This document shows, in pieces, positions 26,182 to 36,184 of a stretch of DNA of 64,000 nt (its first letter is position 1; each line of letters opens with the position of its first letter). This DNA comes from an uncultured Paracoccaceae bacterium (lineage in GTDB: Bacteria; Pseudomonadota; Alphaproteobacteria; Rhodobacterales; Rhodobacteraceae): contig CANLYJ010000001.1 in the NCBI GenBank assembly GCA_947495295.1, positions 62,001 to 126,000 on the forward strand, in the 5' to 3' direction. Below the pieces are notes generated by a model. The model had not been told where the DNA came from and ran no database searches. It saw only the letters and a list, made by a program, of their open reading frames with translations. Both the position numbers and the translations under genes were made by a program.

Positions 26182-29100
26182 GTCAAAAGCCCGGCGATGC
26201 GCGCACGGGCCGAGTTGGACTTGGGTTGCCAGAGGCGGCGATCAATGGCCTCTTGCAGCCGCTGGGCGATTTCTTCTAGCGCAGGGGCATTCGCATCGGC
26301 GATGAAGTCACGCGTGTCCTTGTCTTTGATGAAAGCCTCTTCCACCAGATCGAAATGGTGGTTGCGCACGGCCCCTGTGGTTGCGGCAAAGGCGAACAGG
26401 TAATCTACCGTGGCTGCGATCTCGAAGGCACCTTTATAGCCGTGCCGTTTGACCCCATCGATCCATTTGGGGTTCACCACGCGGGACCGGACCACCCGTC
26501 CGATTTCGTCATCCAGCGTGCGGATGACCGGCCGTTCAGGGCGGGAGTGGTCGTTATGATAGATCGGCCGATCCTGCCCCTGCAGGGTGCTGATAGCGGC
26601 GGCGGCACCACCTTCGAACTGGTAATAATCATCGCTGTCGAGGACATCATGTTCGCGATTGTCCTGATTTTGCACGATGGCTTCAGTTTGGGAGAGGCGT
26701 TGCTCCATAGCGGCGCGTGCTTTGCGGCCTTCTGCGCCGGACCCATAAGCGTAGCTGCCCCATTCAAGATAGGCTTCGGCGAAATCCGCCTTATCGGACC
26801 AGATACGTTCATCGATCAGGGCTTGCAGGCCTGCACCATAGGCGCCGGGTTTTGAACCGAAGACGCGGGTTTGGTCTTCGCCCTGCTTGCTGCGTGCTGC
26901 AGCGGGGTTCAGGTCAGCGGGTTCGTCCAGCGCTTGAACGTCGCGGGCGGCACTATCAACCAGCGCGATCAGTTGTGGGAAGGCGTCGCGGAAAAAGCCC
27001 GAGATGCGCAATGTGACATCAACGCGAGGCCGGCCAAGGACAGATTGCGGCAAGATCTCGAAACCCGTCACGCGCCGGTTTGCGCTGTCCCATGTCGGTT
27101 TGACACCCATCAGGGCCAGAGCCTGGGCGATATCGTCGCCGCCGGTGCGCATATTGGCGGTGCCCCATGCGGTGATCAGCATGGTACGGGGCCAGTCGCC
27201 ATGATCCTGCAGGTGCTTTTCAATCAACAGGTTGGCCGATTTCCACCCCAAAGCCCAGGCGGTCGGGGTCGGGACGGCCCGGCTGTCGACGCTGTAGAAA
27301 TTGCGCCCGGTGGGCAACACATCAAGCCGTCCCCGTGTTGGTGCGCCGGACGGGCCCGGGTTGACGAAGTGTCCTGAAAGGGCGCTGAGGAGACCCGCCC
27401 CTTCGGACCCGCCGCAGGCTTTGATCGTGGGCAGGATGTGGTCCTGAATTTCGGTGAGGACGGCCTGTGCCGCTCGTGGGGTGAACCCCACATCGCCCCA
27501 CCCGCCGTCCCGCAGTCCGCGTTGGCACAGGTTTTCCAGCCGTTCGACAGTGTCGCCATTCGTGCGCCATATGTTGTCATCCGCCAGCGCATCAGGTTTT
27601 TCGGGGGCCGGAGCGCCCATGTCGCAATCAAGCGGGTCGATGCTGAGTTTCAGATCATTGGCCAATGCGCGCAGAAGTGATGCATTTGCCCCCTTGCCAT
27701 CACCGCGCGGTACGCGGGCCAGCGCGATAGCGAGGTCTCGTTCTTGCTGCCCTGTTGGCGATTGCCCGAAGATGTGCAGCCCGTCACGGATCTGCGCCTC
27801 TTTCAACTCGCAAAGATAGGCGTCGAGCTTGCCAAGATCGCTGTCATTGTCACCTGTGAATCCAGCATCCTTGGCGAGGCCGGTCACCTCTGACAGAGAC
27901 AGGATTTCCCGCCGCAGATGGTCAATTCGACGCGGATCGACGCCTGCGGCCTCGTAGTACTCATCAACCAGTGCTTCCAGGTCGCGCAGGGGGCCATAGC
28001 TTTCGGCGCGTGTCAGTGGTGGCGTCAGGTGGTCGATGATCACGGCCGCGCTTCGCCGCTTGGCTTGGGTGCCCTCGCCGGGATCGTTGACGATGAAAGG
28101 GTAGATATGCGGCGTGGGCCCAAACACGACCTCCGGCCAACAGGCCTCGGAGAGCGCCACGGCCTTGCCCGGCAGCCATTCCAGGTTGCCATGTTTGCCC
28201 ATATGCACAATCGCATCTGCGCCCCAGTGGTGCCGCAGCCAGAAATAGAAGGCCAGATAATTATGCGGCGGGACGAGGTCGGGGGCGTGGTAGGTATCGG
28301 TTGGGTCGATATTGTAGCCACGTGCGGGTTGCAGCCCGACGACCGCATTGCCGAAACGGTGGATGCTGAGGGCGAAACCTGGGCCTGTGGATGGATCGGG
28401 ACCCTCCGGGGGGAGTATTTTTGGCAAAATGATGAATGGGTCGTCTTCGGGTTGGCCCCAGCGCGTGGTGATCTGTTCTTTGACCTCCCATGGCAGCGCG
28501 TCGAAATGCTGTCTGTAGATGTCGAGGGGCAGGTGTTCTCCGCCCTCCTTGTCGGCCCGGTCCGTCAGCCAGTTGGTAGGGCCGTCCATGATTTGCTGCA
28601 TGAGGGCGGCGCTGTCGGCGGGGGGCGTGACTACGTAGCCTTCTGATTTAAGCAGGTTGAGTACGTGGATTGTGGCCGCGGGAGTGTCGAGGCCCACGCC
28701 ATTGGCGAGCCGTCCGTCCTTGTTGGGGTAGTTGGCCAGGATCAGGGCGGTTTTTTTGTCTTGTGCGGCGGTTTGTCGTAGCCCTGCCCAGTTCTTGGCC
28801 AGTTGACTGACAAAATCGATCCGGTCGCCGCGTGCCTGATAGGTGGCGATCGGGCATTGCGTGGCATCGTCAAAAAACGCCTCGCCCTTGAAGCTGACCG
28901 CGCGCGACAGGACGCGCCCGTCCACCTCTGGCAAGGCGACGTTCATCGCGATGTCGCGGGCGGTGAGGCCGTGCAAGCCTTCGGCCCAGGTGGATTCGGC
29001 GGCACCCGAGAGGATGACCTGGAAGATCGGTGCTTTATTGGCCAGAAGCGGGTTTTCAGGGCTGTCATCGCCGTCATGCGGCGAGCCGACCGCGAAGGCG

Positions 29101-29894
29101 GTGCAGTTGAGAATGACGTTGGGTGGGGCTGCGTCAAACAGGGTTTTCAGCGTGGCTGTGCTGACCGTGTCCTTGAGGCTGGCCACAAAGACGGGCAGCG
29201 GGTTGAGACCTGCGCGTGACAGGCTGCGGGTCAGCCGGTTGATCGGGTTCAGCCCGCCACCTTGAACCTGCGCGCGGTAGAAGATGATGGGCACGATCGG
29301 GGCGCCGGCGGTCCATGACGCCCGCGCTGCATCAAGATCGGCGATGCCTGCGCCGGGCCAATAGACACCTGCGCGCAAAAGCGGCGTGGGTGCTGCGGGT
29401 TTTTCGCCACCATCCAGCATGACTTTGGCATAGGCCAGCAGGTTGCTGCTGTTTTGCGGCCCGCCTTCGACCAGGTAAGACCAGAGCGTGTCGTAATCCT
29501 GTTCACTGACCGTTGAAAGACCACGCAATTCGGGATCGGGTTTGTCATCGCCGGGCAAAGCGGCAAAAGGGATGCCAGCCGCGTGCAGGCGGGCGGCATA
29601 TTGGGTTAGCCCGTATTTCCAATAGCCCGCGCCGCCCAGAATGCGCGCGATCACAAGCCGGGATTTGGTCGCGCAATCGTCCAGATGCAGATCGACCGAC
29701 ATCGGATGGGTCAAATGCATCATATTGGCCAGCCGCAGGGTCGGCGGGGCTGCCATTTCGCTGCGCGCATCCGAAAGCGCGGCCAGTTCCGTGTCTGCCG
29801 CAGAGATAATCACCACATCGGCAGGGGTCTGGCCCAGATCGACCGGTTCGGTCCCGTCGCTGATGGCCCCGCGCGTGGCGGCAAGCAGATGCAT
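26178..29894 (-). CDS. cobN: Cobaltochelatase subunit CobN
   Basis: 1238-residue large subunit of the ATP-dependent cobaltochelatase that, with CobS and CobT, inserts cobalt into hydrogenobyrinic acid a,c-diamide in the aerobic B12 pathway. Family segments include HRFGNAVVGLQPARGYNIDP, FYFWLRHHWGADAIVHMGKHGNLEWLPGK (in two parts, the metal/ligand His region), FSKPGAYGAGL-like GSKPGAYGAGLQALID and YEWGSYAYG-like LEWGSYAYGSG. Residues about 487-498 (FIILPKILPPEG) are encoded by a dispersed intergenic repeat inserted in frame between DDP and GFALSIHRFGN. cobS and cobT are not in the window. Regulated by the upstream cobalamin riboswitch by operon position. Confidence 0.96.
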   Translation of the reverse strand: MHLLAATRGAISDGTEPVDLGQTPADVVIISAADTELAALSDARSEMAAPPTLRLANMMHLTHPMSVDLHLDDCATKSRLVIARILGGAGYWKYGLTQYAARLHAAGIPFAALPGDDKPDPELRGLSTVSEQDYDTLWSYLVEGGPQNSSNLLAYAKVMLDGGEKPAAPTPLLRAGVYWPGAGIADLDAARASWTAGAPIVPIIFYRAQVQGGGLNPINRLTRSLSRAGLNPLPVFVASLKDTVSTATLKTLFDAAPPNVILNCTAFAVGSPHDGDDSPENPLLANKAPIFQVILSGAAESTWAEGLHGLTARDIAMNVALPEVDGRVLSRAVSFKGEAFFDDATQCPIATYQARGDRIDFVSQLAKNWAGLRQTAAQDKKTALILANYPNKDGRLANGVGLDTPAATIHVLNLLKSEGYVVTPPADSAALMQQIMDGPTNWLTDRADKEGGEHLPLDIYRQHFDALPWEVKEQITTRWGQPEDDPFIILPKILPPEGPDPSTGPGFALSIHRFGNAVVGLQPARGYNIDPTDTYHAPDLVPPHNYLAFYFWLRHHWGADAIVHMGKHGNLEWLPGKAVALSEACWPEVVFGPTPHIYPFIVNDPGEGTQAKRRSAAVIIDHLTPPLTRAESYGPLRDLEALVDEYYEAAGVDPRRIDHLRREILSLSEVTGLAKDAGFTGDNDSDLGKLDAYLCELKEAQIRDGLHIFGQSPTGQQERDLAIALARVPRGDGKGANASLLRALANDLKLSIDPLDCDMGAPAPEKPDALADDNIWRTNGDTVERLENLCQRGLRDGGWGDVGFTPRAAQAVLTEIQDHILPTIKACGGSEGAGLLSALSGHFVNPGPSGAPTRGRLDVLPTGRNFYSVDSRAVPTPTAWALGWKSANLLIEKHLQDHGDWPRTMLITAWGTANMRTGGDDIAQALALMGVKPTWDSANRRVTGFEILPQSVLGRPRVDVTLRISGFFRDAFPQLIALVDSAARDVQALDEPADLNPAAARSKQGEDQTRVFGSKPGAYGAGLQALIDERIWSDKADFAEAYLEWGSYAYGSGAEGRKARAAMEQRLSQTEAIVQNQDNREHDVLDSDDYYQFEGGAAAAISTLQGQDRPIYHNDHSRPERPVIRTLDDEIGRVVRSRVVNPKWIDGVKRHGYKGAFEIAATVDYLFAFAATTGAVRNHHFDLVEEAFIKDKDTRDFIADANAPALEEIAQRLQEAIDRRLWQPKSNSARARIAGLLT
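28402..28434. repeat. 32-bp dispersed repeat embedded in frame in cobN
   Basis: Runs from CCCTCCGG through GGGAGTATTTTTGG to CAAAATGATG and differs from the intergenic copy at 32572-32603 at one position. Read on the cobN strand it encodes FIILPKILPPEG without breaking the frame. Its flanks correspond to a place where related CobN proteins, as I recall them, have no such segment. Confidence 0.85.
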
Positions 29895-29904
29895 CTAGGT
29901 GGAG

Positions 29905-29926
29905 GTCCCGGATCGGCGTCCGGGAC
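29905..29926. repeat. Hairpin between GNAT gene and cobN
   Basis: GTCCCGGA (29905-29912) and TCCGGGAC (29919-29926) flank a 6-base loop, just upstream of the cobN ATG at 29894 and after the GNAT stop at 29939. It could reduce read-through from the GNAT gene or affect cobN translation; no ribosome-binding sequence is otherwise obvious before this ATG. Confidence 0.6.
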
Positions 29927-29938
29927 GATGGCTTGGTA

Positions 29939-30388
29939 TCATAGCTGTTTTTCCATGAAAACAGAGCGCGTGGCGTCAAGATATTGCCCAAAAGCCGCAC
30001 AGGTTTTGTAACCGTTGCGGACATAGAGTTTGAGTGCAGCCACCAGCGCATCGCCGGTTTCCAGACGGATCACGGGCAGGTTTTCCGCGCGCGCCTGATC
30101 TTCGATCTGGCGCAGGATCGCATCGGCCACGCCTTTGCCGCGCGCCTCTTCTGCCACGAACATGGATTTGATTTCGCCGTAACCTTCGCAGGTTTTCAGC
30201 GCGCCGGTTCCCATGATGCTGTCCCCCTCTCGGGCCATGAAAAAATGGATGTCGGAGGCGGCGAGGGCGTTGATGTCGAGAAAGAAGTTTTCCTCTGGCG
30301 GGAACAGCGACCGCATCAGCGCATGGCTTTGTTCCAGCAGGGCAGTTGCACCGGGATGGTGCGGGCTGCCGCGTTCCACGATGATCAT
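29939..30388 (-). CDS. GNAT family N-acetyltransferase
   Basis: 149-residue GCN5-related acetyltransferase. The acetyl-CoA-binding motif A is seen in IKSMFVAEEARGKGVADAILRQIED (family signature R-G-x-G-x-A) and the C-terminal strand in VIRLETGDALVAALKLYVRNGYKTCAAFGQY. Substrate unknown; sequences of this type often acetylate small amines or amino acids. It overlaps cobW upstream by four bases (ATGA) and precedes cobN, so it is inside the riboswitch-controlled unit although no acetylation step is known in B12 synthesis. Confidence 0.85.
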   Translation of the reverse strand: MIIVERGSPHHPGATALLEQSHALMRSLFPPEENFFLDINALAASDIHFFMAREGDSIMGTGALKTCEGYGEIKSMFVAEEARGKGVADAILRQIEDQARAENLPVIRLETGDALVAALKLYVRNGYKTCAAFGQYLDATRSVFMEKQL

Positions 30389-31452
30389 TTCTGCAACGCC
30401 GATGTAATGGCGGCCTGATCCAGCCCGGCCTCGCCGATCACAACCAGCCGGGTTTCGCGGGGGGCGTCGCCGAAGGGCTGATCGAAATAGGTGTCAACGC
30501 GGGGGCCGACCGCTTGCAGGGTCAGACGCATTGGTTTGCCGTTGACAGCGACAAAGCCCTTGAGCCGCAGGATGTTATTGGCGCGGATCGTGCCCGCGAC
30601 CTGTGCGGCGAAGGCGTTGGCGTCAGTGATTTCACCGCGGGTGACGATGAAGCTTTCAAACTCGTCATGGCCATGTGCGTGTTCATGATCGTGATGGTGA
30701 TCGTCTTCGTCGTCATCATGGTGATGATGGTGGTGGATCTCGTGACGGCTATCGAGGTCAGTTTCGGCGCCGATCCCCTGGCCCAGCAGCACATCGACGG
30801 GCAGCGCACCCATGGCGGTTTTGACAACCTGTACCCCGTCGCGGGATTCAGATTTCAGGCGGCTGGTCAGCGCGCCTGCCTCTTCTTCATTCAGAAGGTC
30901 GGTCTTGTTGACGACGATCATATCGGCGCAGGCAACCTGATCTTCGAACAGTTCCGAAAGCGGTGTTTCGTGATCCAGGTTTTCGTCCTGCGCGCGCTGG
31001 GCGTCCACGGCCGCGACATTATGAGCGAATTGCCCGTCATGGACGGCACGGCCATCAACCACGGTGACAACGCCGTCGACGGTGACTTTGGTGGAAATGT
31101 CGGGCCAGTTAAAGGCCCGCACCAGCGGTTGTGGCAAGGCGAGGCCGGATGTTTCGATGACGATATGGTCGGGTTTTTCATCGCGCGCCAGAAGCTGCTC
31201 CATCGTCGGGATGAAATCATCGGCGACGGTGCAGCAGATGCAGCCATTGGACAGCTCGACGATGTCATCTTCGGTGCAGGTTTCTTCGCCGCAGCCTTTG
31301 AGGATATCGCCATCGACCCCAAGATCGCCAAATTCGTTGATGATCAGGGCGATCTTCTTGCCGTCAGCATTTTGCAGCATGTGGCGGATGAGTGTCGTTT
31401 TCCCGGCGCCTAGAAAGCCGGTCACAACGGTAGCGGGGATTTTGGCAGGCAT
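30385..31452 (-). CDS. cobW: Cobalamin biosynthesis metallochaperone GTPase CobW
   Basis: 355-residue G3E-family GTPase thought to deliver cobalt to the chelatase. Walker A GFLGAGKTT (residues 12-20), metal-binding CICC at 71-74 in SNGCICCTV, NKTDLL base-recognition motif, and a C-terminal CobW_C domain. A histidine/aspartate-rich stretch (about 12 His within 30 residues, near residue 245) may store or relay Co2+. The ATG at 31452 has AAGGA upstream; an in-frame start 21 codons earlier lacks support. Lies between hupE and the GNAT gene. Confidence 0.95.
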   Translation of the reverse strand: MPAKIPATVVTGFLGAGKTTLIRHMLQNADGKKIALIINEFGDLGVDGDILKGCGEETCTEDDIVELSNGCICCTVADDFIPTMEQLLARDEKPDHIVIETSGLALPQPLVRAFNWPDISTKVTVDGVVTVVDGRAVHDGQFAHNVAAVDAQRAQDENLDHETPLSELFEDQVACADMIVVNKTDLLNEEEAGALTSRLKSESRDGVQVVKTAMGALPVDVLLGQGIGAETDLDSRHEIHHHHHHDDDEDDHHHDHEHAHGHDEFESFIVTRGEITDANAFAAQVAGTIRANNILRLKGFVAVNGKPMRLTLQAVGPRVDTYFDQPFGDAPRETRLVVIGEAGLDQAAITSALQK

Positions 31453-31529
31453 GGGGGATCCTTGACGGGTTTGACCAAACGGAATGACGGTCCCTGCGGG
31501 ACCGCCATATTTCATGTTTTGCTTGGCGC

Positions 31530-32174
31530 TTAGGCGCCGGCGAGCGCGGTCACAAGCGGCCCTTCGGCGATTTCCAGCGCGAGGAAGACACCAACACCTG
31601 CGACCATGGCTCCGCCAAGCCGGGCATTGATGGCTGTGGCGTCAGATGCGCCCAGTTTTTGCACGATCCAGCCTGCGCCGATGGCGATGACGTATTGGAT
31701 GACGCCCAGCCCGATCAGGTACCCCAGCAGCACAGCACCGCCAACGCCGCCTTCCTGTCCGGCGATTGATCCGCCGAAGGCTGACCCGTGGAACAGGCCG
31801 AATGTCGCGAAAACCAGAATTGCTGCTGTTGTCGAGAGCGCCTTGCCAGACAGGACGATCCCGCCAAGCACGATCAGCGACAGGACGATAACCGTTTCAG
31901 CGATAGGCATCGCGATCCCGGCATACATCAGTCCGCAACCAGCCAACATGGCCCCGATATAGGCGGCTGGTGTCATTAGTTTGCGCCCGGTGAAGAGCGC
32001 CGCGATCCCCATGGCGACCACGAAGAAAAGGTGGTCAAAGCCAAGCACAGGATGCCCGACGCCGGATGCCAGACCATGCACGAATGTCTCCATCGGCAGG
32101 CCGCCAAGCGGGTGGTGTGCAAGTGCAGGTGAGGCGGCAAGGCTAAGGCCGGCAGCAGTAATAAATCGTTTCAT
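31530..32174 (-). CDS. hupE: HupE/UreJ family cobalt importer
   Basis: 214-residue membrane protein with a signal-like first helix ending ASPALAHHP and five or six further helices. The HPLGGLPMETFVHGLASGVGHPVLGFDHLFF region (read in two parts) holds the family H-P-x-x-G and FDHLFF motifs. HupE/UreJ proteins transport nickel or cobalt; position as the first gene after a cobalamin riboswitch and ahead of cobW and cobN indicates cobalt. The ATG at 32174 has AGGGGACG before it. A GC hairpin at 31489-31503 separates it from cobW. Confidence 0.92.
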   Translation of the reverse strand: MKRFITAAGLSLAASPALAHHPLGGLPMETFVHGLASGVGHPVLGFDHLFFVVAMGIAALFTGRKLMTPAAYIGAMLAGCGLMYAGIAMPIAETVIVLSLIVLGGIVLSGKALSTTAAILVFATFGLFHGSAFGGSIAGQEGGVGGAVLLGYLIGLGVIQYVIAIGAGWIVQKLGASDATAINARLGGAMVAGVGVFLALEIAEGPLVTALAGA

Positions 32175-32290
32175 TTTCGTCCCCTTTGGATCGTCGTAAA
32201 GGGGGGATTTCATGGAGTGCCGCCTTTGCCAGCGACTTTACCCCCACGGAACACCCCGTCCGTTGTTGTTGTCCGAAGCCGTTGGCCCCG

Positions 32291-32483
32291 GTGCATGGCT
32301 GGTCTCCTGGCTTGCGGGTCAGGGCACTTTGCGGCCTTCCCGGTTTCCCAGTGGCGTTGTCGCAAAGCACTCACCGCATACAGTCGCGGGGGCGGCTGTG
32401 GCTTAAGGCCCCCGAATTGGATCGGCCCGTCCACATTCCCATTTGATCCCCTGACGCTTGGCGTCGTGCGGGGAACCGTGCAT
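32291..32483 (-). ncRNA. Cobalamin (adenosylcobalamin) riboswitch
   Basis: On the minus strand the conserved blocks appear in order: ATGCACGGTTCCC at the 5' side, GGGGATCAAATGGGAATG, GCCGCCCCCGCGACTGT, CACTGGGAAACCGGGAAGGC and the 3' B12 box GACCCGCAAGCCAGGAGACC ending in a GCATGCAC-type P1 complement (32291-32300). This is an almost complete class I cobalamin riboswitch. It ends about 115 bases upstream of hupE and should repress the hupE-cobW-cobN-cobO-bluB unit when adenosylcobalamin is plentiful. The final ~110 bases before hupE hold the expression platform, with a GC-rich GGACGGGGTGTTCCG stretch that could form it. Confidence 0.95.
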
Positions 32484-32571
32484 CCCTTTTGTGCGCCTTT
32501 GGCTGCATCCGGGTCAAGGTGGAAACCGACATATGCTGATGGAATGGCGGCTTTTGTTGAGAGCGAAGATG

Positions 32572-32603
32572 CCTCCGGCGGGAGTATTTTTGGCAAAATG
32601 ATG
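32572..32603. repeat. 32-bp dispersed intergenic repeat (intergenic copy)
   Basis: CCTCCGGCGGGAGTATTTTT followed by GGCAAAATGATG. The CCTCCGGCGGGAG part is itself palindromic. It matches the copy inside cobN at 28403-28434 at all but one position. It lies in the 245-bp stretch between the riboswitch and smc, which otherwise shows no gene; the rest of that stretch should hold the promoters of the riboswitch unit and of smc, which I could not pinpoint. Confidence 0.8.
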
Positions 32604-32728
32604 CTGCCATCTTCAATATCTTGTGGATAAGTGGCGCGAAATGGCCTTATCTAGATGGCTTTCGTTGACTCCGGGGCCCTTGCGGGGACAGGATTTGTCA
32701 ACTTGAGGGAATCAAGAGCAGGTAGCGC

Positions 32729-35700
32729 GTGCGGTTTAGCAAACTTCGACTGAATGGCTTTAAGAGCTTTGTGGACCCAACCGATCTGATCATCGCCGAT
32801 GGTCTGACCGGTGTTGTGGGTCCGAATGGTTGTGGCAAGTCCAACCTGCTTGAGGCCCTGCGCTGGGTGATGGGCGAAAACCGTCACAAGGCGATGCGTG
32901 GCGGCAGCATGGAAGACGTGATCTTTGCCGGGGCGTCGACCCGGCCTGCCCGAAATTTTGCCGAAGTATCGCTGATCATTGATAATGGTGAACGGCTGGC
33001 CCCTGCCGCCTTCAACGACAATGATAACCTTGAGATTATTCGCCGGATCACCCGCGATGCCGGATCGGCCTATAAGGTCGGGGCCAAGGATGTCCGCGCC
33101 CGCGATGTGCAGATGCTGTTTGCCGATGCATCCACCGGGGCGCATTCGCCAGCGCTGGTCCGTCAGGGCCAGATTTCGGAACTGATCAACGCCAAACCCA
33201 AGGCCCGCCGCCGCATTCTGGAAGAAGCGGCTGGTATTTCGGGCCTGTATCAACGTCGTCATGAGGCGGAGTTGAAGCTGAAAGGCGCCGAGACGAACCT
33301 GACCCGTGTTGATGATGTGATTGAGCAATTGGCGTCGCAACTGGGGCAGTTGGCCCGGCAGGCCCGGCAGGCCGCCCGGTATCGCGAGATCGGGGAGAAG
33401 CTGCGCAAAGCCGAGGGCATGCTGTTGTTCCGCCGCTGGAAAGAGGCTGATGAGGCCCTGATGGCCGCGTCAGAGCAGTTGCGTGAGCGGACGACCGCAG
33501 CAGCACAGGCCGAAAAAGCGGCGCGTGAGGCCAGCAAGGGCCGCCAGATGGCCGAAGATGCCTTGCCTGCGCTACGCGAGGAAGAGGCGATTGCGGCGGC
33601 TGTTTTGCAGCGCCTGCAAGTGCAGCGCGATACGTTGAAGGATCAGGAAGAACGCGCCCTGTCGATGATCGAAACCCTGCGCGCCCGGATTGATCAGCTG
33701 AGCCGTGATATGGAACGCGAAAGCGGGCTGAACAAGGATGCCGGCGAGACGATTGAGCGGCTGGAATGGGAAGCCCGCGAGATTGCCAAGGCGGGCGACG
33801 GCCATGACAAACGGCTGGAAGAGGCGCAGGTCGCGGCCCGGGAAGCCGCAGGCGTGTTGCAGCAACGCGAGGCGGATTCCGCGCAACTGACCGAGGATGT
33901 GGCCCGATTGGCCGCGCGCCATCAGTCTGCGCAGCGTTTGCTGGAAGATAACCGTACCACGCTGGAAAAGAACGAAAGCGAGGCTGCCCGTGCCAAGGCG
34001 GCGATGACCGAGGCAGAAGCGGCGTTGACCAAAGCCGAAGCTGACTTTGCTGCCGCAGGTGAGGCGGAAAAACTGGCCGTTGCTGGGGCCGAGGCAGCGG
34101 ATAAGGCATTGGTCGCAGCAGAGGCCGCCCGCGCCGAAACCCAAGGTCGCGAAAGCGATGCGCGCGGGCTGCGATCCGAGGCCGAGGGTGAGGCCAATGC
34201 CTTGCGCGCCGAGGTGGCTGCGTTGGCCAAGCTGGTGGAACGGGACACCGCAGAGGGCGGTCAGGTTCTTGACCTGCTGCGTGTGCAGGGGGGCTATGAA
34301 AAGGCGCTGGGCGCGGCATTGGCCGATGATCTGCGCGCGCCGGCGGTGGCGGCGGAGGCGGCATCGGGCTGGGCCTTGTTGCCCGGCTATGCGACGCCGC
34401 AGACCTTGCCAGAAGGGGTTGCCGCCCTGACGAATTACGTCACCGTGCCAGAGGTATTGGCGCGCCGGATGTCACAGGTCGGTCTGGTGGATCAGGCGGA
34501 TGGCCCACGTTTGCAGGCCGATCTGAAACCCGGTCAGCGGCTGGTATCGTCAGAGGGTGATTTGTGGCGCTGGGATGGGTTCCGTGCCGGGGCCGAGGAT
34601 GCCCCGTCGGCTGCCGCTTTGCGCTTGCAGCAGTTGAACCGCCTGACTGAATTGAAACGTGATCTGGAAGAAGCGTCTGCCACCGCCATGGGTGCCGCAC
34701 AGGCGCATGAGGCGTTGACGGCAATGTTGAAAGACCAGACTGAGGCGGATCATGCCGCACGTCTGGCCCGCCGCGATGCAGATCGGGCTGTGACGGATGC
34801 AAACCGCGCGGCCAGCCGGGCAGAGGCGGATCGCAACCTGAGCCAGGGCAAGCTGGAAAGCCTCGGACTTGCGCTCAAGCGCCATGAGGAAGAGGCGATG
34901 AATGCCCGCAAGGCCTTGACCGAGGCTGAAAAGGCAGCCGCGGCATTGGGCGACCTGGATGCTGCCCGCGCATCGGTTGAAGATGTGAAAATGACAGTTG
35001 AGGCGGCCCGGATCACGATGATGTCGCGCCGGTCGGCCCATGATGAGGTCCGCCGCGAGGGTGAGCAGCGATTGAAGCGGAGCCAGGAGATTACCAAGGA
35101 AATTTCTGGCTGGAAGCACCGGTTGGAGACGGCCAATAAACGCACCGCGGAACTGGCCGAACGCAAGGCGGCAAGCGAGGTCGAACTGGTCGATGCGACA
35201 GCGGCGCCAGATGAGATTGCGGCCAAACGTGCAGAATTGGCTGATGCCATTGATGAGGCAGAGACCCGGCGCAAAGCATCCGCCGACAAGCTGGCCGAGG
35301 CCGAAACGGTGTTGCGCGATGCAGGCCATGTTGAACGGGATTCCGAGCGGCTGGCATCAGAGGCCCGCGAGGCCCGCGCCCGGTCCGAGGCGCGGTCCGA
35401 TGCCGCGCGCGAAACCGTCGCCTATGCGGCAGAGCGGATCATGGAGGCGCAAGAGGTCACGCCCGATAAGTTGCTCGAAAGCCTTGAGACCGATCTGGAT
35501 CAGATGCCCGCTTCCGAAAAGGTCGAAGGCGAGGTGAATGCGCTAAAGCGGCAGCGCGACAGCCTGGGTGCCGTGAACCTGCGCGCCGAGGAAGACGCCA
35601 AGGAGGTGCAGGTCGAGCATGATGCGCTGGTCAGTGAAAAGGCCGATCTGGAAGCGGCGATTGCCGCCTTGCGGTCGGGCATTGCCAGCCTGAACAAGGA

Positions 35701-36184
35701 AGGCCGCGAGCGGTTGTTGACCGCCTTTGAGCAGGTGAACGAGAACTTCGGCCTGCTGTTTACCCATCTGTTTGGCGGTGGTGAGGCAAAGCTGGTGCTG
35801 GTGGAATCTGACGATCCGCTTGAAGCCGGGTTGGAGATCATGTGCCAGCCGCCGGGCAAGAAGCTGAGCACGCTGTCGCTGCTGTCTGGGGGGGAGCAGA
35901 CGCTGACGGCGCTGGCGCTGATCTTTGCTGTGTTCCTGGCCAACCCCGCCCCGATTTGTGTGCTGGACGAGGTCGACGCGCCGTTGGATGATGCCAATGT
36001 GACCCGGTTCTGTGATCTGCTGGATGAGATGACCCGCCGCACAGAAACCCGGTTCCTGATCATCACCCACCATGCTGTCACCATGAGCCGGATGGACCGG
36101 CTGTTTGGGGTGACCATGGGCGAACAGGGTGTGTCGCAACTTGTTTCGGTTGACCTCAAGAAAGCTGAGGCGCTGGTTGCGTAA
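32729..36184 (+). CDS. smc: Chromosome segregation protein SMC
   Basis: 1151 residues with the full SMC architecture. The N-terminal ATPase half has Walker A (VGPNGCGKSN, about residue 30-39); long coiled coils run at about 165-480 and 660-990; the hinge domain is around 500-640 (LLRVQGGYEKALGAALADDL); the C-terminal head has the signature LSGGEQTLTALAL and Walker B ICVLDEVDAPLDD. It condenses and orients sister chromosomes with ScpA/ScpB. The start is GTG (MRFSKLRLNGFKSF) with AGCAGG upstream. Long open frames on the opposite strand are shadows caused by its GC-rich codon use. Confidence 0.97.
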   Translation: MRFSKLRLNGFKSFVDPTDLIIADGLTGVVGPNGCGKSNLLEALRWVMGENRHKAMRGGSMEDVIFAGASTRPARNFAEVSLIIDNGERLAPAAFNDNDNLEIIRRITRDAGSAYKVGAKDVRARDVQMLFADASTGAHSPALVRQGQISELINAKPKARRRILEEAAGISGLYQRRHEAELKLKGAETNLTRVDDVIEQLASQLGQLARQARQAARYREIGEKLRKAEGMLLFRRWKEADEALMAASEQLRERTTAAAQAEKAAREASKGRQMAEDALPALREEEAIAAAVLQRLQVQRDTLKDQEERALSMIETLRARIDQLSRDMERESGLNKDAGETIERLEWEAREIAKAGDGHDKRLEEAQVAAREAAGVLQQREADSAQLTEDVARLAARHQSAQRLLEDNRTTLEKNESEAARAKAAMTEAEAALTKAEADFAAAGEAEKLAVAGAEAADKALVAAEAARAETQGRESDARGLRSEAEGEANALRAEVAALAKLVERDTAEGGQVLDLLRVQGGYEKALGAALADDLRAPAVAAEAASGWALLPGYATPQTLPEGVAALTNYVTVPEVLARRMSQVGLVDQADGPRLQADLKPGQRLVSSEGDLWRWDGFRAGAEDAPSAAALRLQQLNRLTELKRDLEEASATAMGAAQAHEALTAMLKDQTEADHAARLARRDADRAVTDANRAASRAEADRNLSQGKLESLGLALKRHEEEAMNARKALTEAEKAAAALGDLDAARASVEDVKMTVEAARITMMSRRSAHDEVRREGEQRLKRSQEITKEISGWKHRLETANKRTAELAERKAASEVELVDATAAPDEIAAKRAELADAIDEAETRRKASADKLAEAETVLRDAGHVERDSERLASEAREARARSEARSDAARETVAYAAERIMEAQEVTPDKLLESLETDLDQMPASEKVEGEVNALKRQRDSLGAVNLRAEEDAKEVQVEHDALVSEKADLEAAIAALRSGIASLNKEGRERLLTAFEQVNENFGLLFTHLFGGGEAKLVLVESDDPLEAGLEIMCQPPGKKLSTLSLLSGGEQTLTALALIFAVFLANPAPICVLDEVDAPLDDANVTRFCDLLDEMTRRTETRFLIITHHAVTMSRMDRLFGVTMGEQGVSQLVSVDLKKAEALVA

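Follow-up and report, generated by a model that had tools for sequence, protein, structure and literature searches.

Protein-embedded repeats have precedents in Rickettsia and among intragenic REPs. In passages of two published accounts, Rickettsia palindromic elements (RPEs) are described as occurring both in intergenic DNA and, in frame, within conserved proteins, with orthologues sharing the place of the insert (PMC2229807, PMC3767692), and a passage of the former gives them as palindromes of 105 to 146 bp (PMC2229807). GTAG- and CGTC-tagged REPs, according to sections of a further report, are 20 to 40 bp long and lie mainly between unidirectional and convergent genes, with some inside ORFs; the same sections equate RPE-4 and RPE-6 with short CGTC REPs and say that CGTC REPs have no dedicated transposase (PMC3733652). 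MITEs of the ERIC and NEMIS type are given in a review as about 100 to 200 bp long, most of them with terminal inverted repeats (PMC2229807). We report here a short non-palindromic repeat, dispersed in marine bacteria of the Rhodobacteraceae, that lies in frame in a loop of the vitamin-B12 enzyme CobN and, in a reading that we give a probability of about 0.8 as a whole, is kept alike within genomes, most likely by copy-to-copy exchange or replacement.

The window, the whole stretch of 64,000 nucleotides that was analysed, comes from an uncultured Paracoccaceae bacterium and holds two copies of the repeat, one inside cobN and one between genes (Table 1). The sole difference between them is a G for a C. 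We found no third match in the window with the variable base left open and up to three mismatches allowed, and 100 shuffles gave no match. The genome of the bacterium (G000) has the 32-base pattern at 17 places with up to three mismatches, and the 17-base core at 19 places with up to two mismatches; the reversed control of each search gave 0. A looser core is present in 55 of 56 genomes of the genus, at 0 to 108 places per genome, with 0 or 1 in the reversed controls. The original prediction, that a dispersed intergenic repeat also sits in frame within cobN, is therefore borne out by the 31 of 32 identical bases and the 17 genome copies, which are mostly intergenic among the copies examined.

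Table 1. Positions of the repeat copies and adjoining features (window coordinates unless a locus is named)
Feature	Position	Strand	Remarks
cobN, cobaltochelatase subunit CobN, 1238 aa	26178..29894	-	ORF; Pfam CobN-Mg_chel; NCBIfam cobaltochelatase subunit CobN
Repeat copy inside cobN	28403..28434	+ (cobN read on -)	Writes I488-E497; 31/32 bases identical to 32572-32603
Left part of cobN insert, coding sense	28413..28436	-	F487 (TTC), then ATCATTTTGCC-AA-AAATACTC
Cobalamin riboswitch adjoining the intergenic copy (context, outside the repeat)	32280..32495	-	Rfam, 107.7 bits
Intergenic repeat copy	32572..32603	+	Between cobalamin riboswitch and smc-like ORF
smc-like ORF 3' of the intergenic copy	32729..36184	+	Open reading frame; presumed smc-like from its N-terminal sequence
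In-frame BchB copy (GASGGSISGKMIE)	L016 1501-1532 = G000:C2:57659-57690		Linker before C-terminal PCP_red

In the coding sense, the cobN copy begins with the third base of codon 487 and ends with the first base of codon 498. It encodes IILPKILPPE with parts of F487 and G498. The prediction had correctly placed FIILPKILPPEG in frame upstream of the conserved GFALSIHRFGN; however, the two are not directly adjacent, because seven residues (PDPSTGP) lie between them, and the start had been given as 28402 rather than 28403. The insert occupies a length-variable CobN loop between DPF and GFALS. In alignments, the solved CobN 9uk9 is without the segment, and 7c6o has a shorter stretch at this place. 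Of 149 family genomes, 51 gave a CobN match, among them the bacterium's own; 48 other family rows were read, and 38 of them show no recognisable repeat in the loop. CobN relatives without the segment had indeed been expected. For the loop, whose modelling had been suggested along with the prediction, an AlphaFold2 model of CobN residues 330-830 from 26 alignment rows shows the insert (model residues 158-176) as coil, with a low block mean pLDDT of 57 for 161-170; a strand begins at 177. The model is of mediocre quality (mean pLDDT 69.9, pTM 0.59), and a fold search with it matched CobN/ChlH structures with poor superposition.

CobN was detected in 55 of the 56 genus genomes, and 54 rows were aligned; G041, a fragment only, was left out. 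The PPE insert is present in 45 of the 54 rows and decayed-looking in two (L044, L079), and seven have no recognisable insert (L042, L075, L082, L084, L086, L088, L089). A check for an insertion limited to some strains had been suggested. The insertion is absent from some rows, but it spans nearly the whole genus and is found again in other genera. One loop is short (DPFIHAD, in G042), whereas its sister G051 has the insert (sister branch 100*). The peptide itself varies, with forms such as FCSKIPPPEA, IILPKILPPEA, ALSEILPPEA, and RAEISPPEA.

We then looked at the codons of 43 full-length rows, chosen by PPE at the protein level. The third bases of the two Pro codons are G in 39/43 and 42/43 (CCG, CCG). 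As uniform or more so were 6 and 1, respectively, of 414 fourfold columns, the two Pro columns themselves included, and mean homozygosity over the 414 was 0.45. The insert Glu is GAG in 43/43; across the 24 all-Glu columns, GAG has a mean share of 0.28, and the next highest value is 0.70. CCG-CCG-GAG differs from the codon use of cobN otherwise. Judged from these columns, the repeat's bases, beyond its residues, are conserved in the cobN insert. The match had been said to be coincidence if distant CobN proteins kept the residues with unrelated DNA. This is not seen in the rows whose DNA was read, where the residues go with repeat DNA or a decayed-looking form of it. We found no point in support of the idea that a proline-rich loop resembles intergenic sequence by chance; the empty shuffles, the 17 genomic copies against none in reversed controls, and the repeat-specific codon bases rule it out for practical purposes.

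Two cobN genes of the genus are interrupted. In G022 (G022:C1:19587-23295) the gene falls into two frames that part near residue 683; in G018 (L048) it contains a single internal TGA. A sequencing error and a real break are both possible for each.

For the anatomy of the repeat, we aligned 77 copies, a subset of those in six genomes, with the embedded copies among them. The shared sequence is about 32 to 36 nt long. Read in the coding sense of cobN, a copy consists of a left module, two variable bases, and then AAATACTCCCGCCGGAGGC or a variant. The left module varies by genome: it is (T/C)ATCATTTTGCC in the window genome, CTTCTTTCTTCC or CTTCTTTTGTTC in G051, and CTTCATCTTGGCC in G018, and other species have other modules at the position of ATCATTTTGCC-AA-AAATACTC in the cobN insert. 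No terminal inverted repeats were noticed in the 77 aligned copies. GATG/CATC-like ends flank several copies on both sides (there was no clean empty/filled strain pair).

The repeat mainly occupies short spacers between genes among the copies examined. By our own rough gene caller, the flanking genes are codirectional for 46 of the 77 copies, convergent for 12, and divergent for 4; another 13 copies are inside an ORF and 2 at an edge. This distribution, and a GC-rich part followed by TATTTTT that resembles a terminator, would suit a repeat that works as a nucleic-acid site, be it a terminator, a protein-binding site, or an RNA-processing site; with a trans-acting partner that differs from lineage to lineage, every copy, that in cobN included, would coevolve by selection. 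We consider this rather unlikely. The copies between codirectional genes have no fixed orientation, 28 being in the same and 18 in the opposite one. For five core forms, folding was no stronger than in shuffles (z of -0.47 to +1.51), an Rfam scan of window positions 28000-33000 returned the cobalamin riboswitch only, with no match at either repeat copy, and an antisense terminator inside cobN would have no evident use. An intrinsic terminator in particular, with a stable hairpin before the T-run and oriented with the upstream gene, was rejected because of the weak fold and the 28 versus 18 orientations.

A composite of the core and a separate hairpin folds at a z of -2.33. Hairpins of this kind occur no more than 45 nt away from 8/77 copies on the GGAGGC side and from 3/77 on the other side, compared with 39/1540 random stretches. 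Those on the GGAGGC side are near L010, L017, L230, L231, L244, L256, L259, and L270, and several are A/T-rich and nearly perfect. Copies also crowd near cobN: 21 lie within 40 kb of, but outside, cobN versus 4.6 expected in the 13 genomes with listed places, and these counts are non-independent because the sites are orthologous.

To compare the CobN copy with the others of its genome, we counted four core types (T1 to T4) in all 56 genus genomes. Thirty of the 54 CobN segments are exactly one type (T1 14, T2 7, T4 6, T3 3); the comparison covers these 30 and not the other 24, which match none of the four types exactly. Each of the 30 typed genomes has one or more further copies of its own CobN type, whereas 20000 shuffles, which ignore kinship, gave a mean of 18.6 and a maximum of 27. 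Kin-corrected pairs are too few for a firm comparison, at two to three per type on starred branches, with none in the wrong direction and with no difference at all in the T3 pairs. Among close kin, G001 has a T3 CobN, nine other T3 copies, and no T1 in the genome; G009, G013, and G015 have a T1 CobN, with 8, 8, and 7 other T1 copies (clade 99*). The minor module in CobN of G051 is common to four other copies of that genome. As a pattern, then, the copies within one genome are alike. Since the CobN loop type tends to agree with the other copies of its own genome, the repeat DNA appears to write part of the protein.

The agreement has exceptions. The window cobN copy reads CCCCCC versus CCCGCC, and CCCCCC is found in 0/16 other own-genome copies. 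Therefore, recent overwriting does not explain the right half of the window copy; the variant is common to the CobN copies of the relatives G050 and G008. At the intergenic site before smc, which is filled in G000, G042, G048, G050, and G051 (the four relatives were picked for having a listed copy there), the left module of G042 and G051 is unlike that of G000, G048, and G050. This difference fits replacement in place, and we count it for our main reading, at slightly lower confidence in view of how the relatives were picked. The stretch fetched from G049 has no copy before smc, and that from G008 shows no smc start.

CobN is not the only host protein. In BchB of the window genome (L016 171-1715), the repeat lies in the opposite orientation in a linker before the PCP_red domain. 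BchB was matched in 33 of the 56 genus genomes, of which 30 were read and 3 were not, and 11/30 carry an in-frame repeat: T1 in G000, G048, G050, and G008; T2 in G010, G021, and G055; T3 in G018 and G002; and near-T3 in G003 and G044. Nine of the 11 are exactly T1, T2, or T3, and by simple count all nine genomes contain other copies of the type in question. By eye, an adjoining palindrome is also in frame in BchB of G018, G021, and G055. One genome, G018, has an in-frame copy (AHHLAENTPAGG) in NrdJ (L248 nt 3-1589), the B12-dependent ribonucleotide reductase, just past the part that aligns to 1xje and in another reading frame. This copy is T1 in a mostly T3 genome, and thus not every copy is overwritten. 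The 13 copies scored inside an ORF comprise one in cobN, three in bchB, eight that were inspected, and L270, which was not. One of the eight was accepted, in NrdJ of G018; the other seven were rejected, mainly as overlong ORF starts judged by eye.

Beyond the genus, the core was present within one mismatch in 17 of 80 named CobN loci and absent from 62, and one was not located. The loop in other genera is filled, decayed, or empty. Bearers of the insert include Marimonas, Jannaschia, Litoreibacter, Pseudooceanicola, Loktanella, and Pseudooctadecabacter, and decayed-looking repeats were seen by eye at the same cobN junction in L096, L100, L107, L166, L170, and L196. The junction after GAC/GAT-CCN-TTC, the orientation, and the frame are the same in most bearers read, distant genera included; exceptions are two Pseudooceanicola rows, L169 and L197, whose left junction differs. 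Our tree combines 15 rows picked by hand from the 54 of the genus with those of the family and of the named loci, 142 in all; some genomes appear twice, and row L193 was misread and sits on a false long branch. In this tree, 36 rows are insert-like by peptide motif, which takes at least 15 changes, 14 of them forced by starred branches.

The constant junction, the decayed-looking forms elsewhere, and the near genus-wide presence might point to a single old insertion into an ancestral cobN that was passed on vertically and held by peptide selection as a functional loop, with losses elsewhere and an intergenic match that reflects old kinship only. However, the third codon bases are those of the repeat, the subtype in CobN is also that of other copies in the genome, the peptide varies, the insert has been lost in G042, and the bearers are scattered with 14 forced changes, which together make a single old insertion improbable. 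Independent insertions at a cobN hot spot, through microhomology between the repeat end CTTC and the gene's CCN-TTC and followed by vertical decay without exchange, are a possible explanation, although not the one we favor. They would account for the nearly constant left junction, the scattered bearers, and the mismatch-free core of Marimonas, which lies within a clade mostly without the insert. The differing modules at an already filled intergenic site and the CobN subtype switches between close kin fit overwriting better. Overwriting and fresh insertion may also act together, and the tree does not fully separate a single old insertion from repeated insertion.

CobN of L048 and L091 (G018 and G104, of two genera) is identical over the whole insert (TTCATCTTGGCCAGAAAACTCCCCCCGGAGGGTCGG). 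Viral contigs gave 0 matches to the pattern form with the GGCCAARATGAA module, the one form scanned, which disfavors a phage vehicle of that form. Eight plasmid records matched, from Leisingera, Parasedimentitalea, Ruegeria, Phaeobacter, and Thioclava, all of which we take to be Rhodobacteraceae; no listed gene lies under these matches in a gene table that is incomplete. Among the open-access literature matches listed, no title or abstract opening describes the repeat, which is weak evidence of absence.

The best reading of these sequences is a REP-like repeat that is tolerated in protein linkers and uniform within genomes. We suggest that the repeat is tolerated in CobN because the loop, to judge by its varying length and its predicted low-confidence coil, accepts length change. 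The likeness within genomes would most likely arise via gene conversion, other copy-to-copy exchange, or replacement in place. In this scenario, the embedded CobN copy would be overwritten together with the other genomic copies, and the CobN peptide would therefore follow the genome subtype rather than enzyme selection. Where overwriting stops, the copy may decay, and deletion back to a short loop is possible, as the decayed forms and G042 suggest. More tentatively, a dedicated, unrecognised process without a Y1 transposase could homogenise and re-seed the repeat, rewriting the CobN loop and the BchB linker across lineages. If such a genome-wide process exists, protein segments would be set by repeat drive and not by enzyme selection. 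Present in many species and in two or more host proteins, the repeat offers a natural experiment for how bacterial repeats without a known transposase stay alike, and for the extent to which copy exchange can write protein sequence.

Among known systems, the cyanobacterial small dispersed repeats (SDR) are also very short mobile repeats, with other sequence and hosts. The ERIC and NEMIS MITEs resemble the present repeat in that they are described as non-autonomous and as having open frames that are joined to ORFs (PMC2229807). They are longer, and most have terminal inverted repeats, of which none were noticed here. The likeness to REPs is closer. The size falls within their range, the placement is mainly unidirectional or convergent (46 + 12 of 77 copies), and some copies lie in ORFs; unlike REPs, the aligned copies and folds have no GTAG- or CGTC-tagged stem. 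The Y1 transposase domain (PF01797, Y1_Tnp) was found in 11 of the 56 genus genomes, 8 of them over the cut-off, and was absent from G019, G053, and G054, which have 81 to 108 repeat copies. The window genome has an IS200-like Y1_Tnp at G000:C1:542181-542417, in a 121-aa open frame, with no listed copy within 100 kb. REP/RAYT identity was rejected, since the domain does not track copy number and that of the window genome is far from the listed copies. The original prediction had likened the insert to the RPEs. The likeness holds in that the repeat is intergenic and also in frame inside the conserved proteins CobN, BchB, and NrdJ. However, at about 32 to 36 nt and without a palindrome or a stable stem-loop, it is no Rickettsia palindromic element. 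What sets the present case apart is a short, non-palindromic insert in bacteria unlike Rickettsia in their way of life, and a feature added to those of the RPEs: the embedded copy agrees in type with the other copies of its genome.
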